The translations under genes and the position numbers were made by a program. A DNA stretch of 64,000 nt from Stella humosa (GTDB lineage: Bacteria; Pseudomonadota; Alphaproteobacteria; ATCC43930; Allostellaceae). Location of the stretch: positions 694,001 to 758,000 of the forward strand of contig NZ_AP019700.1 in NCBI RefSeq assembly GCF_006738645.1. Direction: 5' to 3'. Shown here piece after piece: positions 15,422 through 19,757 of this stretch. A model generated the notes under the pieces. It made no database searches. It was given only the letters and a program-made list of their open reading frames with translations, and was not told the origin of the DNA. Numbering within the stretch: the first letter of the stretch is position 1; each line of letters opens with the position of its first letter.

Positions 15422-16507
15422 TTATGTCGGACGTCGGGGCCCCCGCGTCAATGCTCCGGGGCCGATCAGCCAGTGAAGATGCGGGTCGAAGCCGCCGGCG
15501 GCGATCAGCGGCGCCATCACGCCGTGGATGGCGATCCCCCGCAGCGGCACCAGTTCGACGCCCGGCACCCGCCCCAGGTGTTCGGCCTCCCGCCGGTCGA
15601 CCGCATTGTCCGCGCCGAACAGCATGCGCACCCTGGGCCGGCGTTCGGCGGCGGCATAGCGCCGGGCCAGGTCGAGCGCGCCCGTGTCGAGCGGCGGCGC
15701 GTCCGGGCCCAGCAGCCGGTGGCGTTCCAGCAGCAGCGGCACGGCGCCGTCGAGCACCGTCGGCCCGGCCAGGCAGAGAATGCGCCGGGCGCCGAGGTCG
15801 AGGCCGCAGTTGAGCGCCCCGTACGAGCCGGACGAGCTGCCCAGGCAGAGGATGCGGCGTGCGCCCAGCGACCGTGCGATGCCGTGCAGGCCGTCGATCA
15901 TGGCGGGATAGCCCGCGCCCAGCGAGCCGATGCCGCCCAGGAAATGGAGCCCGGCGAAATCGCGCAGATAGGCGATGTGGCTGCCCAGCCGGCAGAGCCA
16001 GCGATGGGCGACGGCGAGCGGCCCGTTCAGCTTGTGCGCCCCGCCGGTGAACACCAGCAGCAGCCGGTCGGCGCCGGGGCGTGGCACGATCTGGACGTCC
16101 AGGGTCGGATCGTCGGCCAGGTCCGCCTGTCCTTCCGGCAGGGCCGGCATATGACCCAGCAGGGCCTGCAGGTGGTTCAGCCCGGTCAACACGGGGTTGG
16201 GCGAGGACGCGTCGTCGGGGTAGCAGGCGCGTGCGCAGGCCCGGGCCGCCTCGATCTGGCCGAACGCGATGATGATGTCGAGCAGGATCATCCGGTCGCG
16301 CGCTGCGGCCGGCACGGGCGGCAGGGGCTGGCCGTTGTCGAAGCCTGCGATCTGCGCGATCGCCGCCCGCACCAGTTCCGCGCCGCGGAGATCGCGGCTG
16401 TGCCGCAGGACGTCGGCTACCGCGTCCGGGCCGCCGCGCCGCCAGCAATCGGCCAGTTGCGCCATCCTGCCCTGGGCCCGCGGCATTGGCCCGGCGAGGC
16501 CGCTCAA
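15422..16507 (-). CDS. Alpha/beta-hydrolase-like protein linked to an acyl carrier protein
   Basis: A 361-residue protein I do not recognise by family. The N-terminal about 130 residues look helical. The rest has alpha/beta-hydrolase character: a strand LLLVFTGG, a nucleophile-elbow-like GSSSGS (about residue 225), and a late His (GIAIHGVM) that could complete a triad. The TTG at 16507 overlaps the ACP stop (TTGA), which suggests coupling; ATGs at 16486 and 16465 are alternatives and none has a clear Shine-Dalgarno. Its tight linkage to an ACP gene suggests it acts on an acyl chain carried by that ACP, for example as a thioesterase or acyltransferase; this is inference. Confidence 0.6.
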   Translation of the reverse strand: MSGLAGPMPRAQGRMAQLADCWRRGGPDAVADVLRHSRDLRGAELVRAAIAQIAGFDNGQPLPPVPAAARDRMILLDIIIAFGQIEAARACARACYPDDASSPNPVLTGLNHLQALLGHMPALPEGQADLADDPTLDVQIVPRPGADRLLLVFTGGAHKLNGPLAVAHRWLCRLGSHIAYLRDFAGLHFLGGIGSLGAGYPAMIDGLHGIARSLGARRILCLGSSSGSYGALNCGLDLGARRILCLAGPTVLDGAVPLLLERHRLLGPDAPPLDTGALDLARRYAAAERRPRVRMLFGADNAVDRREAEHLGRVPGVELVPLRGIAIHGVMAPLIAAGGFDPHLHWLIGPGALTRGPRRPT

Positions 16508-16740
16508 GGATCGGCTGACTGCCGCGAATAGGCGGCGATGGCGGCGATCGAGCGGCAGGCGGGGAAGTCCGCATCGGCCACATGCAGGCCGTAGAGGTCT
16601 TCGACCCGCATCAGGATCTGCGCATGGTCGAGGGAATCCAGCCCGAAATCATAGAAATCGGTCTCGATCCCGAGTGCGGCCAGGTCGCCACGATCGACCG
16701 CGTCGGCAATCGCGGCGCGGATGTCGGCCTCGCTCAGCAT
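16504..16740 (-). CDS. Free-standing acyl carrier protein
   Basis: A 78-residue phosphopantetheine-binding protein. The motif DFGLDSLDHAQ places the modifiable serine at residue 36, with the helix I-III pattern of ACPs around it. It differs from the housekeeping fatty-acid ACP, which is more acidic and has a DSLD-VELVM motif, so it is probably a dedicated carrier for a specialised pathway. It overlaps the upstream unknown gene (ATG within ATGCTGA) and the downstream hydrolase-like gene, forming a tightly packed three-gene unit. No adenylation, ketosynthase or phosphopantetheinyl transferase gene is nearby. Confidence 0.88.
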   Translation of the reverse strand: MLSEADIRAAIADAVDRGDLAALGIETDFYDFGLDSLDHAQILMRVEDLYGLHVADADFPACRSIAAIAAYSRQSADP

Positions 16741-17405
16741 GGGCGTTCCTGTGCCAGAAGCAGACGGCCGAACGGGGCGCCGTCGGCGGCCATCGCGACC
16801 TTGCGGAAAGGCCCGGCATGCCCCGCGAGCGCGATCTCGACGGCAGCACCGGCCGGCGGCGAGCGGGTGCAGGCGATCTCGGCCAGCAGCCAGAAGGTGT
16901 CGGGCTCGTCGCGTTTCAGCAGGGCGACCGACAGCGCCACGGCGCGGCGAACGATGGGCATGCCCATAGCCCCGGCCGGCAGTCGCGCGCCCATCGCTTC
17001 CATCCGTGCCCCTTCGATCAGGGTAGCCTCGTCGAAGGGGATGCGGGCGGGGATCGGCCGGTCGGGCAACGGGCGCAGCCGGTGGCGCTGCGCCGTGCCG
17101 TTGCGCCTATGGTGAAAGCTGCCGATGTCGTCGATGCCCGGACCGGCCGTGCTGCCCGGGCTGGCCGTGCTGCCCGGGCTGGCCGCGTCGTCCAGCACCG
17201 CGATGGCGCAGTCGCAGGGCCGCCGCATCGTCAGGACCATGTCGGCGGTGGCACCGGTCAGGTGCCGCAACGCCTCGAAGATATCGGCACCATGGGCATA
17301 GCGGCGTGTGCCCGTCATCCCGACGGCAATGGAGGGGATGGCACGGTGGGCGGCATCCTCGATCAGCAGCCGATCCGATGTCATACCGGTTTCGTAGCCG
17401 GCCAT
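16734..17405 (-). CDS. Unknown protein encoded upstream of the ACP
   Basis: A protein of 216-223 residues whose family I do not recognise. Two starts are possible: ATG 17405 (MAGYETGM) and ATG 17384 (MTSDRLL); neither has a strong ribosome site. Near residue 100 there is a SPGSTA-SPGSTA-GPG repeat coded by an 18-bp tandem duplication. The second half (IPFDEATLIEGARMEAMG onward) loosely resembles a hotdog-fold helix and sheet, as in acyl-CoA/ACP dehydratases and thioesterases, but I see no catalytic signature. Overlap with the ACP gene implies a role in loading, modifying or releasing its cargo. The terminator at 17449-17479 lies just upstream and separates it from the LysR side. Confidence 0.6.
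   Translation of the reverse strand: MAGYETGMTSDRLLIEDAAHRAIPSIAVGMTGTRRYAHGADIFEALRHLTGATADMVLTMRRPCDCAIAVLDDAASPGSTASPGSTAGPGIDDIGSFHHRRNGTAQRHRLRPLPDRPIPARIPFDEATLIEGARMEAMGARLPAGAMGMPIVRRAVALSVALLKRDEPDTFWLLAEIACTRSPPAGAAVEIALAGHAGPFRKVAMAADGAPFGRLLLAQERPC
17145..17186. repeat. 18-bp tandem duplication inside a coding sequence
   Basis: The 18-bp unit GGCCGTGCTGCCCGGGCT occurs at 17145-17162 and 17163-17180 with a partial third copy. It is in frame in the unknown gene and encodes repeated Ser/Gly-Pro-Gly-Ser-Thr-Ala. It is likely a slippage-prone linker. Confidence 0.85.
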
Positions 17406-17448
17406 GGCCGGCGGCTCAAGGGCGACGGAGGGCTCCGGGGCCGCGAGC

Positions 17449-17479
17449 AAAAAAAGGCCCCGGTGTTTCCACCGGGGCC
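17449..17479 (-). terminator. Intrinsic terminator, 10-bp perfect stem plus T-run
   Basis: GGCCCCGGTG and its exact complement (17456-17465 and 17470-17479) enclose a 4-base loop, and on the minus strand seven T residues follow (17455-17449). This is the clearest rho-independent terminator in the window. It ends a transcript coming from the LysR side or from the candidate small RNA. Confidence 0.93.
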
Positions 17480-17625
17480 AGTTGAACAGGGAGGCTTCAC
17501 GTCTGGGAGACGTAGGATCCCGAAGGACCCCATTTCGGGCGGGGAGCCCGAAATCTCTGGCCGGTCGTCCCCTCCCAGCGGGGTCGAGCAACCGAATTCC
17601 GTGGTGCTGCAATGCAGCGCGTCCG
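17449..17625 (-). ncRNA. Candidate structured small RNA with repeated CUCCC elements
   Basis: Between LysR and the ACP cluster, about 180 bases fold on the minus strand into successive hairpins and end in a perfect intrinsic terminator. Hairpins, in RNA order: GCTGCA/TGCAGC (17618-17606), an 8-bp stem TTTCGGGC/GCCCGAAA with loop UCCCC (17553-17533), a 6-bp stem with UUCG tetraloop (17530-17515), and ACGTCT/AGACGT with loop CCC (17513-17499). A single-stranded CCUCCC follows at 17494-17489; it could also pair with GGGAGG near 17577-17572. The repeated C-rich elements resemble anti-Shine-Dalgarno motifs of alphaproteobacterial sRNAs. A TATTTA-like -10 lies near 17636-17631. The 5' end is uncertain, and I could not match it to a known family. 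Confidence 0.6.
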
Positions 17626-17737
17626 GATGATTAAATAGGCATCGGGTGCCCCCGCACCACAGCGATTGTCTCGTGGCGGATATGCGAAAACCGCATGGCT
17701 TCGGCCACATAGCAGCCAAAATTAGATTCTCCCGGCA

Positions 17738-17758
17738 ACTGCCGGTTCGACCGGCAGT
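17738..17758. repeat. Inverted repeat just downstream of LysR
   Basis: ACTGCCGGT and ACCGGCAGT form a 9-bp perfect hairpin with a 3-base loop, 13 bases after the LysR stop. There is no immediate U-tract, so it is a weak terminator or an mRNA 3'-end stabiliser. Confidence 0.6.
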
Positions 17759-17771
17759 CATGCTGCACTGC

Positions 17772-18662
17772 CTAAAATCGCGTCTCCGCGACCCTTGCCA
17801 CGAGATAATCGCGGAACACGGCAATGCGCTTGGAGTGGCGCAATTCTTCGGGGTAGACGAAGTAGGTGTCGACCGGCGGGCCGGCCAGTTCGGGCAGCAC
17901 GCGATCGAGCGTCTGGGACTCGGCGATCATGTAGTCCGGCAGGGCACCGATGCCCATTCCGCTCTCGACCGCCCGCAGGATCCCGTAGACGCTGTTGACC
18001 GTGAAGAGGTTGGGCCGGTGCCGACCGACCTGGCCGCCGATATCCATCAGCCAGTTCACCGACGGCGTCGGTGCGTGGCCATATTCGCCGAACACCACCA
18101 GCCGATGCTTCTCCAGGTCGGCCGTGGTCAGCGGCGTCCCGTGCTCCTGCAGGTACTGCCGCGAGGCGTAGAGATGGAGCGAGACGGTGACGAGGTGGCG
18201 CTGCACCAGGTCGGGCTGGCGCGGCGGGGCCATGCGGATGGCGACGTCGGCCTCGCGCATGCCGAGGTCGAGCTCGGTCTCGTCGAGCAGCAAGCTGACC
18301 TGGATGTCCGGGTAGCGGTCGATGAACTCGCGCATGCGCGGCGTCAGCCACATCGAGCCGAAGGCAACCGGCGCCGTCACCTTCAGCGGGCCCTTGGGCC
18401 GGTCCTTGGCCTCGCTGAGGGCGGCCTCGGTCATCGCCAGCTTGGCGAATACCTCATGGGCGGTGCGATAGAGCAGTTCGCCCTGCTCGGTCAGGATCAG
18501 GCCGCGGGCATGGCGATGGAACAGCGGCGTGCCGAGGCTGTCCTCGAGCGCGCTGATCTGCCGGCTGACCGCCGACTGGCTCAGATTCAGGTTCTCACCC
18601 GCATGCGTGAAGCTGCCAGCCTCCGCCACGGCGTGAAAGATACGCAGCTTGTCCCAGTCCAT
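17772..18662 (-). CDS. LysR-family transcriptional regulator
   Basis: A 296-residue LysR-type regulator beginning MDWDKLRIFHAVAEAGSFTHAGE, the canonical start of the subgroup encoded next to thioredoxin reductase in many alphaproteobacteria. The N-terminal winged helix-turn-helix is followed by a two-lobed effector domain (LKVTAPVAFGSMWLTP, then GMGIGALPDYM). ATG 18668 two codons upstream is an alternative. It lies 72 bases downstream of trxB on the same strand. The conserved linkage suggests redox-related control, but the effector is unknown. Confidence 0.9.
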   Translation of the reverse strand: MDWDKLRIFHAVAEAGSFTHAGENLNLSQSAVSRQISALEDSLGTPLFHRHARGLILTEQGELLYRTAHEVFAKLAMTEAALSEAKDRPKGPLKVTAPVAFGSMWLTPRMREFIDRYPDIQVSLLLDETELDLGMREADVAIRMAPPRQPDLVQRHLVTVSLHLYASRQYLQEHGTPLTTADLEKHRLVVFGEYGHAPTPSVNWLMDIGGQVGRHRPNLFTVNSVYGILRAVESGMGIGALPDYMIAESQTLDRVLPELAGPPVDTYFVYPEELRHSKRIAVFRDYLVARVAETRF

Positions 18663-18734
18663 TGCCATCCGCGTTCACGGGCTGTCGGCCTTGCGGCCGG
18701 CGCCCGAGCCCCCCTTGTCGTTGGCCGCCGACCC

Positions 18735-19706
18735 CTAGTCGGCGGCCTGCTTGCTCAACTCGTCCTCGGCCTCCGCCAGCCAGCGCTCGGCCTCGAGAGC
18801 CGCCATGCAGCCCAGCCCCGCGGCCGTCACCGCCTGCCGATATATCTTGTCACGCACATCGCCCGCCGCGAAGACCCCGGGGATGTCCGTCGCCGTCGAA
18901 TCGGCGCGAGTCAGAATGTAGCCCTCTGAATCGAGCGCCAGTTGCCCCTGGAACAGCTCGGTCACCGGCGTGTGGCCGATGGCGACGAACACGCCGTCCA
19001 GTTCCAGCGTCGACTGCTCCCCGCTGTCGACATGGTTCAGGCGCACCCCGGTGACGCCGGGCGGCGTGCCTTCGCCCAGGATCTCGTCCACCACCGCGTT
19101 CCATATCACCCGCACCTTGGGGTGGCGGAAGAGCCGGTCCTGCAGGATCTTCTCCGCCCGCAGGCGATCGCGCCGATGGATGAGGACGACCTCGCTGGCA
19201 TGGTTGGTCAGGTACAGCGCCTCCTCGACCGCGGTGTTGCCGCCGCCGACGACCGCCACCTTGCGGCCGCGGAAGAAGAAGCCGTCGCAGGTGGCGCAGG
19301 CCGACACGCCGGCGCCGCGATACCGCTCCTCGCTGGGCAGGCCCAGCCAGCGCGCCTGGGCGCCGGTCGCGATGACGATGCTATCGGCGGTGTATTCGTC
19401 CCCGCTGTCGCCGATGGCGCGGAACGGCCGCTGGCTCAGGTCGCAGGACACGATCAGGTCCCCCACCAGGCGCGTGCCGACATGCTCGGCCTGCCGGCGC
19501 ATCTGCTCCATCAGCCAAGGGCCCTGGATCACGTCGGCGAAACCGGGGTAGTTCTCGACGTCGGTGGTGATCATGAGCTGGCCGCCAGGCTGCATGCCCT
19601 CGACCAGCATCGGTTGCAGGTTGGCGCGCGCGGCATAGATGGCGGCGGTATAGCCCGCCGGTCCGCCGCCGATGATGAGAACCTTGCTGTGATGGCGCTG
19701 GGCCAT
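18735..19706 (-). CDS. trxB: Thioredoxin-disulfide reductase
   Basis: A 323-residue FAD/NADPH enzyme that reduces thioredoxin. Visible are the FAD dinucleotide motif [10 protein letters not shown], the redox-active CATC (Cys137, Cys140), the NADPH motif [12 protein letters not shown] and the C-terminal FAD motif [10 protein letters not shown]. Start ATG 19706 gives the standard length; the longer frame to 19733 adds nine residues without support. It is divergent from the glycosyltransferase gene at 19758. Confidence 0.96.
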
Positions 19707-19757
19707 TGCCCGCCGACTCCAGGAAATAAACACGAAACCATAAGATAGTCAGACCGG

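Follow-up and report, generated by a model that had tools for sequence, protein, structure and literature searches.

A conserved small RNA downstream of vtlR in Stella humosa, at the genomic place of AbcR and SorX

Introduction

The described RNAs closest to the one considered here are AbcR, SorX and MmgR. AbcR (ar15, RF02345) is found in rhizobia, and is reported to repress transporter mRNAs by means of anti-Shine-Dalgarno motifs (PMC5461406, PMC8844928). One of its genes, abcR1, is described as having a promoter of its own (PMC8844928). Accounts of the control of this promoter disagree: according to one paper, the LysR-type regulator LsrB drives abcR1 in S. meliloti (PMC8844928), whereas another states that it does not (PMC7486931). 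The VtlR box has been published as GCAT-N3-TG-N3-T (PMC8844928, PMC7486931), and a cysteine redox switch has been described for LsrB (PMC8844928).

For SorX (RF02784), known from phototrophs, published work reports that RNase E releases it from a 3' UTR (PMC6238624, PMC9438474) and that it represses potA (PMC9438474). Both AbcR and SorX are described as Hfq-dependent (PMC9438474, PMC3712013). MmgR, also named SisA-D (ar8, suhB, RF00519), is described as being under PhaR-type control (PMC12542648), and its gene is said to adjoin a formylglutamate amidohydrolase gene in most species (PMC12559287).

The locus in Stella humosa

The window is a stretch of 64,000 nucleotides of the Stella humosa genome. 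On its minus strand, trxB, a LysR gene, a gap, an open reading frame and an acyl-carrier-protein-like gene follow one another in this order:

18735..19733, minus strand: trxB, thioredoxin reductase, upstream of vtlR (NCBIfam TIGR01292, 406.3 bits, cut-off 343.45)
17772..18668, minus strand: vtlR/lsrB orthologue, LysR-type regulator of 298 aa without cysteine (Pfam HTH_1 and LysR_substrate)
16734-17405, minus strand: open reading frame, start taken as 17405, without a Pfam or NCBIfam match
16504-16740, minus strand: acyl-carrier-protein-like gene

From the LysR stop (17772) to the start of the next minus-strand reading frame (17405), the gap spans 366 bases. The acyl-carrier-protein-like gene has reading frames without a Pfam match on both sides (16734-17405 and 15422-16507, both minus strand). 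Over residues 1-298, the LysR protein shares 50.3% identity with the one encoded after trxB in S. meliloti Ak57. The protein of the window has no cysteine, compared to three in each of three rhizobial proteins, so a redox switch of the LsrB type is not to be assumed here.

A first-pass annotation had claimed that the gap is not empty on the minus strand, and the fold of the whole gap (17449-17771) is indeed more stable than every shuffle (z -5.05, 0/100 as low). The narrower stretch 17449-17640 folds at -87.6 kcal/mol (z -3.65, 0/200 shuffles as low). The following parts can be distinguished:

17449..17625, minus strand: small RNA of about 177 nt, with a 5' end inferred from the promoter and a 3' end given by the terminator
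17533..17553, minus strand: hairpin 1, UUUCGGG-CUCCCCG-CCCGAAA, with a C-rich loop (7/7 pairs changed on both sides among relatives; 87.5% of cells paired)
17515..17531, minus strand: hairpin 2, GGGGUCC-UUCG-GGAUCC (helices 2 and 3: 7/7 pairs changed on both sides)
17499..17513, minus strand: hairpin 3, ACGUCUCCCAGACGU, with a near-invariant CUCCCA loop (97.4% of cells paired, little variation)
17481..17498, minus strand: single-stranded GAAGCCUCCCUGUUCAAC, proposed anti-Shine-Dalgarno seed (invariant in relatives; 12-bp pairing with a solute-binding-protein leader)
17449..17479, minus strand: intrinsic terminator, 10-bp stem and seven U (10/10 pairs changed on both sides; 96.1% of cells paired)

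Most of the structural detail in the annotation held. The minimum free energy (MFE) fold contains the UUCG tetraloop (17515-17531) and a terminator stem of 10 pairs at 17456-17479, followed by seven U that run to 17449. It also exposes all three of the C-rich, CUCCC-like elements that had been listed, namely UCCCC in the loop of 17533-17553, CCC within the CUCCCA of 17499-17513, and the single-stranded CCUCCC of 17481-17498, where the exposed strand includes GAAGCCUCCCUGUUCA. At least four stable hairpins had been described, and the MFE has them, but the conserved unit is three hairpins and the terminator, with a variable hairpin further 5'. A scan for terminators gave two terminator-like sites in 2 kb compared to 0.8 (sd 1.0) in shuffles; as this count is near the shuffle level, it is the stem itself that is remarkable and not the count. 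The expected transcript of 150-190 nt ending at 17449 agrees with the roughly 177 nt that would separate the putative start near 17625 from the terminator.

Conservation and covariation

A DNA search of 61 relatives gave a match in 40. The core is present in 30/30 loci of relatives (at most 4 mismatches allowed), and four congeners are identical across 17553-17481, with diverged sequence more 5'. When 30 loci of relatives are aligned, the stretch GUCUCCYAGACGUGAAGCCUCCCUGU is invariant; it is preceded by two hairpins of variable sequence and followed by the terminator. For 20 of the 30 consensus pairs in this alignment, at least one sequence is changed on both sides with the pair kept.

A covariance model, R1, was built from relatives without SorX. 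It matches 189 of 385 genomes sampled evenly from the class (E <= 1e-3), while the other 196 gave no match with the filters applied to large sets, which are stricter. Second copies of the RNA occur in some of the class genomes. For a larger test of covariation, 83 distinct sequences from 84 chosen loci were aligned by fitting them to the model. Here 93.3% of cells pair, compared to 68.0 in shuffles, and 575 cells are changed on both sides, compared to 167. The covariation score is 0.581, against 0.163 in shuffles (0/500 as high) and at most 0.118 with the partners slid. The number of pairs with a change on both sides is less striking (24 versus 21.6 in shuffles, 6/500 as high).

The changes sit in hairpins 1 and 2 and in the terminator, while hairpin 3 hardly changes. 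Its invariance in the 83-sequence set is partly a matter of selection, because the exact 27-base core was the criterion for including loci L189-L268; the region is also near-invariant in the 30-locus alignment, which is free of such selection. A protein-coding reading, either of 17404-17634 or of a TTG-extended reading frame at 16734-17612, was rejected because the stems covary and the loops vary in length.

At least 119 stretches in a public genome collection contain the exact core. Among the 80 matches listed, 73 have titles that name an alphaproteobacterial taxon and 7 name only Proteobacteria; the genera include Azospirillum, Roseomonas, Inquilinus, Reyranella, Kiloniella, Nisaea, Magnetovibrio and Caedibacter. 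The small RNA is real and widely conserved, being present in about half of the class genomes sampled. A lack of hairpin conservation in relatives had been named beforehand as an outcome that would refute the proposal, and this test came out for an RNA. The description as a small RNA of alphaproteobacterial type with repeated anti-Shine-Dalgarno CUCCC motifs was right in kind.

Linkage to vtlR

The LysR protein of the window has a match in 227 of the 385 class genomes at E <= 1e-60. Of the 104 genomes for which matches to both the protein and the RNA are listed, 95 have the RNA downstream of vtlR on the same strand at no more than 6 kb, 83 of them at no more than 570 nt; it is far from vtlR in 3 and on another contig in 6. 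Forty vtlR loci without a listed RNA were examined, and an R1 match (E <= 1e-3) follows the gene in 14 of them. There is none in the other 26, and these are counted against a VtlR-linked reading. Among the 80 named loci with the core, a VtlR C-terminal signature stands upstream in 53 of the 69 that have enough upstream sequence.

The slot after vtlR varies. At L103, L115, L129, L139 (family f43), L141 and L253, at least two R1-type matches stand near each other, either behind vtlR or within a single locus; they are read as tandem copies of the RNA, like AbcR1/AbcR2 in rhizobia. At L110, L125 and L136 (family f122), the sequence after vtlR has several CUCCC-type stretches and hairpins before a terminator and no R1 match; a further, diverged occupant is possible there. 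At L188 (Methylobacterium bullatum) and L169, other sequence follows vtlR almost directly and no RNA model matches, which shows that the slot can be empty. One record, L182 (CP090106.1), is titled S. meliloti pSymB; given its length of 3.7 Mb and the trxB-lsrB-abcR locus on it, this is apparently a mislabelled or fused replicon.

Promoter and proposed regulator sites

The sequence upstream of the RNA holds four candidate elements:

17682..17696, minus strand: LysR-type palindrome ATGC-N7-GCAT, proposed VtlR box, at about -71 to -57
17655..17660, minus strand: weak -35 region (GTGGTG), assigned by position alone (T and GG conserved, offsets 37-39 of the anchored profile)
17632..17638, minus strand: -10 element CTATTTA, assigned by position in the palindrome-anchored profile (start then at about 17625)
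17606..17618, minus strand: dyad GCTGCATTGCAGC, a PhaR-like operator just past the putative start, at about +8 to +20

The palindrome is present in 92 of 151 distinct upstream regions, compared to 1.3 in dinucleotide shuffles and 2/145 in a downstream control; its strict form is missing from the other 59, which is counted against it, and because the regions share kinship all such promoter counts overstate the number of independent events. When regions are aligned on the palindrome, a conserved G and T appear in the flank at the places of the published VtlR box. In the window this box is partial (GCAT-ATC-CG-CCA-C for GCAT-N3-TG-N3-T), with the palindrome itself present. The abcR regions of S. 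meliloti and R. leguminosarum have the same palindrome, overlapping the published box; in Shinella the box is present and the strict palindrome is missing. The strict palindrome was not found at the loci of Azospirillum p2, Tistrella pTM3, Paracoccus and Methylobacterium.

Counted from the first base of the palindrome, a -10-like element follows at about 58-64 nt, and its position points to transcription starting near 17625. At this offset, the commonest hexamers in 110 loci are CTATTT (8) and CTATAT (6).

The dyad pattern TGC-N3-GCA occurs anywhere in 86/151 upstream regions, compared to 21.6 in shuffles and 28/145 downstream regions. At 77-85 nt after the palindrome start it occurs in 45/151 (0.0 in shuffles, 0/145 downstream); at this distance it is missing from 106/151, again counted against it. 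The dyad resembles PhaR sites reported for S. meliloti, the mmgR site among them (PMC12542648), and the Stella humosa genome encodes a PHB_acc_N (PhaR-type) protein. In the transcript, the dyad might also fold into a small 5' hairpin, which makes PhaR binding a putative role.

Predicted targets and Hfq

Targets were searched for with a single pattern, the seed complement AACAGGGAGG followed by ATG within 2-12 nt. It occurs once in this genome, twice in genome G001 and three times in congener G003, and the reversed pattern occurs 1, 0 and 0 times, respectively. The site in this genome and one of the G003 sites precede the same NMT1-type solute-binding protein, and in G003 the 12 paired bases of this leader are kept while the sequence further upstream differs. 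In G001, one site stands before a DctP solute-binding protein and the other opens only 12 codons; of the remaining two G003 sites, one stands before a dienelactone hydrolase and the other before a protein with no Pfam match. The five reading frames of at least 197 aa that follow sites encode three solute-binding proteins, of which two are orthologues of each other, and two other proteins. A flank-shuffle control was circular, since the sites had been chosen by the same pattern. As the sites are few and were chosen by complementarity, they serve as a lead to targets. The NMT1-type and DctP sites agree with the reported repression of transporter genes by AbcR and SorX.

Hfq (PF17209) was not found in this genome assembly; it is present in 54 of the 61 relatives, including three congeners. 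At C1:2733755-2735630, about 2.3 kb is missing compared to congener G003, with both flanks matching (L308, L310, L311). In G003 the missing part holds a HAD-type hydrolase (read from sequence), hfq and most of hflX. The gap is either a real deletion or an assembly error. In the first case, the RNA has to function in this organism in the absence of Hfq; in the second, there is no conflict with Hfq-dependence.

Proposed mechanism and alternatives

The most probable reading, held with good though not full confidence, is that the locus encodes a trans-acting RNA of about 177 nt, activated by VtlR, gated by a PhaR-type repressor and acting as an anti-Shine-Dalgarno repressor of transporter genes. 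VtlR, encoded just upstream, would bind ATGC-N7-GCAT at 17682-17696 and activate the weak promoter, with transcription starting near 17625. The dyad at about +8 to +20 would be the binding site of a PhaR-type repressor, a sensor of stored polyhydroxybutyrate; this would apply to many relatives and probably to Stella humosa as well. Transcription would stop at the terminator of the RNA itself. The CUCCC elements that the RNA exposes, especially the single-stranded GAAGCCUCCCUGUUCA, would pair with Shine-Dalgarno regions and block translation, and the repressed genes would be transporters, chiefly those for periplasmic solute-binding proteins. The RNA looks like one sequence family with SorX and occupies the genomic place of AbcR. 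Its structure and conservation, the gene order, the conserved boxes of the promoter and the position in common with SorX and AbcR are computational results, whereas transcription and its start, the binding of VtlR and PhaR, the targets and the outcome are predictions.

Part of this evidence could be read differently. Since SorX is reported to be released from a 3' UTR by RNase E (PMC6238624, PMC9438474), and the RNA of the window falls into the SorX sequence family and lies on the same strand directly after vtlR, a vtlR or trxB-vtlR transcript might run to the terminator and RNase E might free its stable 3' part. We regard this as unlikely, though as the most serious of the alternatives: the palindrome, -10 element and dyad are kept at fixed distances, which would be superfluous for a pure 3'-UTR product, and abcR1 at the same place is reported to have its own promoter (PMC8844928). 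The two routes can coexist. The position directly after vtlR in most of the genomes compared would also suit a stretch that is only the vtlR 3' UTR and terminator, serving mRNA stability or autoregulation with no function in trans. This is improbable, because the least variable part is precisely the anti-Shine-Dalgarno single strand and the CUCCCA loop, copies lie far from vtlR or on other contigs in 9/104 genomes, second copies exist, and other RNAs at this place are described as acting in trans (PMC5461406, PMC8844928, PMC9438474).

The trans-acting RNA could further be thought a form of MmgR/ar8. The two share a weak hairpin, a single-stranded CCUCCCU and a terminator; the suhB model gives 26.2 bits over the 3' module, below its cut-off of 41; suhB and ar15 belong to one Rfam clan (CL00108); and a PhaR site is reported at mmgR too (PMC12542648). 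However, a separate ar8 locus in this genome (C1:1587017-1587090) reaches 61.6 bits, the published ar8 10-mer UUUCCUCCCU (PMC12559287) is replaced by AAGCCUCCCU in the window, and the neighbours are the LysR gene and a reading frame without a Pfam match rather than a formylglutamate amidohydrolase gene. This identity is therefore very improbable. The first-pass annotation had offered a divergent 6S RNA as its alternative, for which nothing speaks beyond length. The 6S model (RF00013) has no match in the region at E <= 10, and the structure that the alignment supports consists of consecutive short hairpins with a terminator, which leaves this idea with practically no weight.

Comparison with known systems

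A widespread RNA for which Rfam has no separate entry now has a model of its sequence and structure. The analysis ties SorX to the vtlR gene, bringing the AbcR literature of rhizobia and the SorX literature of phototrophs to one testable question on the shut-off of uptake, and the two-box promoter predicts which regulators to test. In a literature search conducted mostly outside subscription papers, no paper joined AbcR1, Rhodospirillales and sRNA, SorX was absent from the four papers in which VtlR, LsrB and sRNA occur together, and the 21-base core appeared in no paper; with this coverage, the link may nevertheless have been published. Five 10-base pieces were not found in the main text of an A. 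brasilense paper (PMC7685610).

Across the whole window, all matches to Rfam families stay below their cut-offs. Sub-threshold matches (suhB, SorX, BjrC1505, SorY, Betaproteobacteria_toxic_sRNA and others) do not amount to membership, and many cover mainly the terminator. The first-pass annotation had left the family unrecognised; it can be identified as the vtlR/lsrB-linked RNA in the position of AbcR (Rhizobiaceae) and SorX (Paracoccus).

In rhizobia, the AbcR gene order trxB-vtlR-sRNA is the same as in the window. The ar15 model exceeds its cut-off after vtlR in three Rhizobiaceae (S. meliloti, R. leguminosarum and Shinella), each with two ar15 genes, compared to one copy in the window; R. 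leguminosarum has the same trxB-vtlR-ar15 order as S. meliloti. Upstream, S. meliloti and R. leguminosarum share the palindrome ATGC-N7-GCAT with the window. The RNAs also share the M1 motif CUCCCA exposed in a hairpin, reported in the first hairpin of AbcR (PMC5461406) and lying in the loop of the third in the window. In other respects they differ. The M2 motif GUUCCC between the hairpins of AbcR is replaced by GCCUCCCUGUU, within GAAGCCUCCCUGUUCAAC. At E <= 10, the ar15 model (gathering score 40) finds nothing within 17380-17790, and R1 does not match the three rhizobial ar15 pairs even with filters off. The ar15 model (RF02345) has no match in 190 class genomes, nor in the controls, so absence is not implied. 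AbcR holds the same place as the RNA of the window, and any homology between the two is conjectural.

The likeness to SorX extends to sequence. The RNA of the window scores 24.4 bits with the SorX model, below the gathering score of 46.6, and a cmscan alignment shows that the two share the single strand CCUCCCUGUU followed by the terminator; unlike SorX, the RNA of the window has three hairpins upstream of the seed. SorX exceeds its cut-off directly after the vtlR gene, as in the window, in six loci (Paracoccus denitrificans, three genomes of family f24 and two of f44; a fourth f24 genome is below the cut-off). R1 finds SorX loci at E 4e-9 to 2e-4. Since it finds SorX but not ar15, SorX and the RNA of the window look like one sequence family.

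It is tempting, though rather doubtful, to take these systems as descendants of one ancestral alphaproteobacterial RNA born downstream of vtlR, with VtlR (about -71 to -57) and PhaR (about +8 to +20) acting on one promoter to turn uptake off when carbon is stored. SorX would then be the form of one lineage, AbcR would have taken over the slot or diverged in it in Rhizobiaceae, and the RNA would still work here despite the loss of hfq. While the expected mode of action is ordinary, the recognised family and the link from SorX to the place of AbcR are new.
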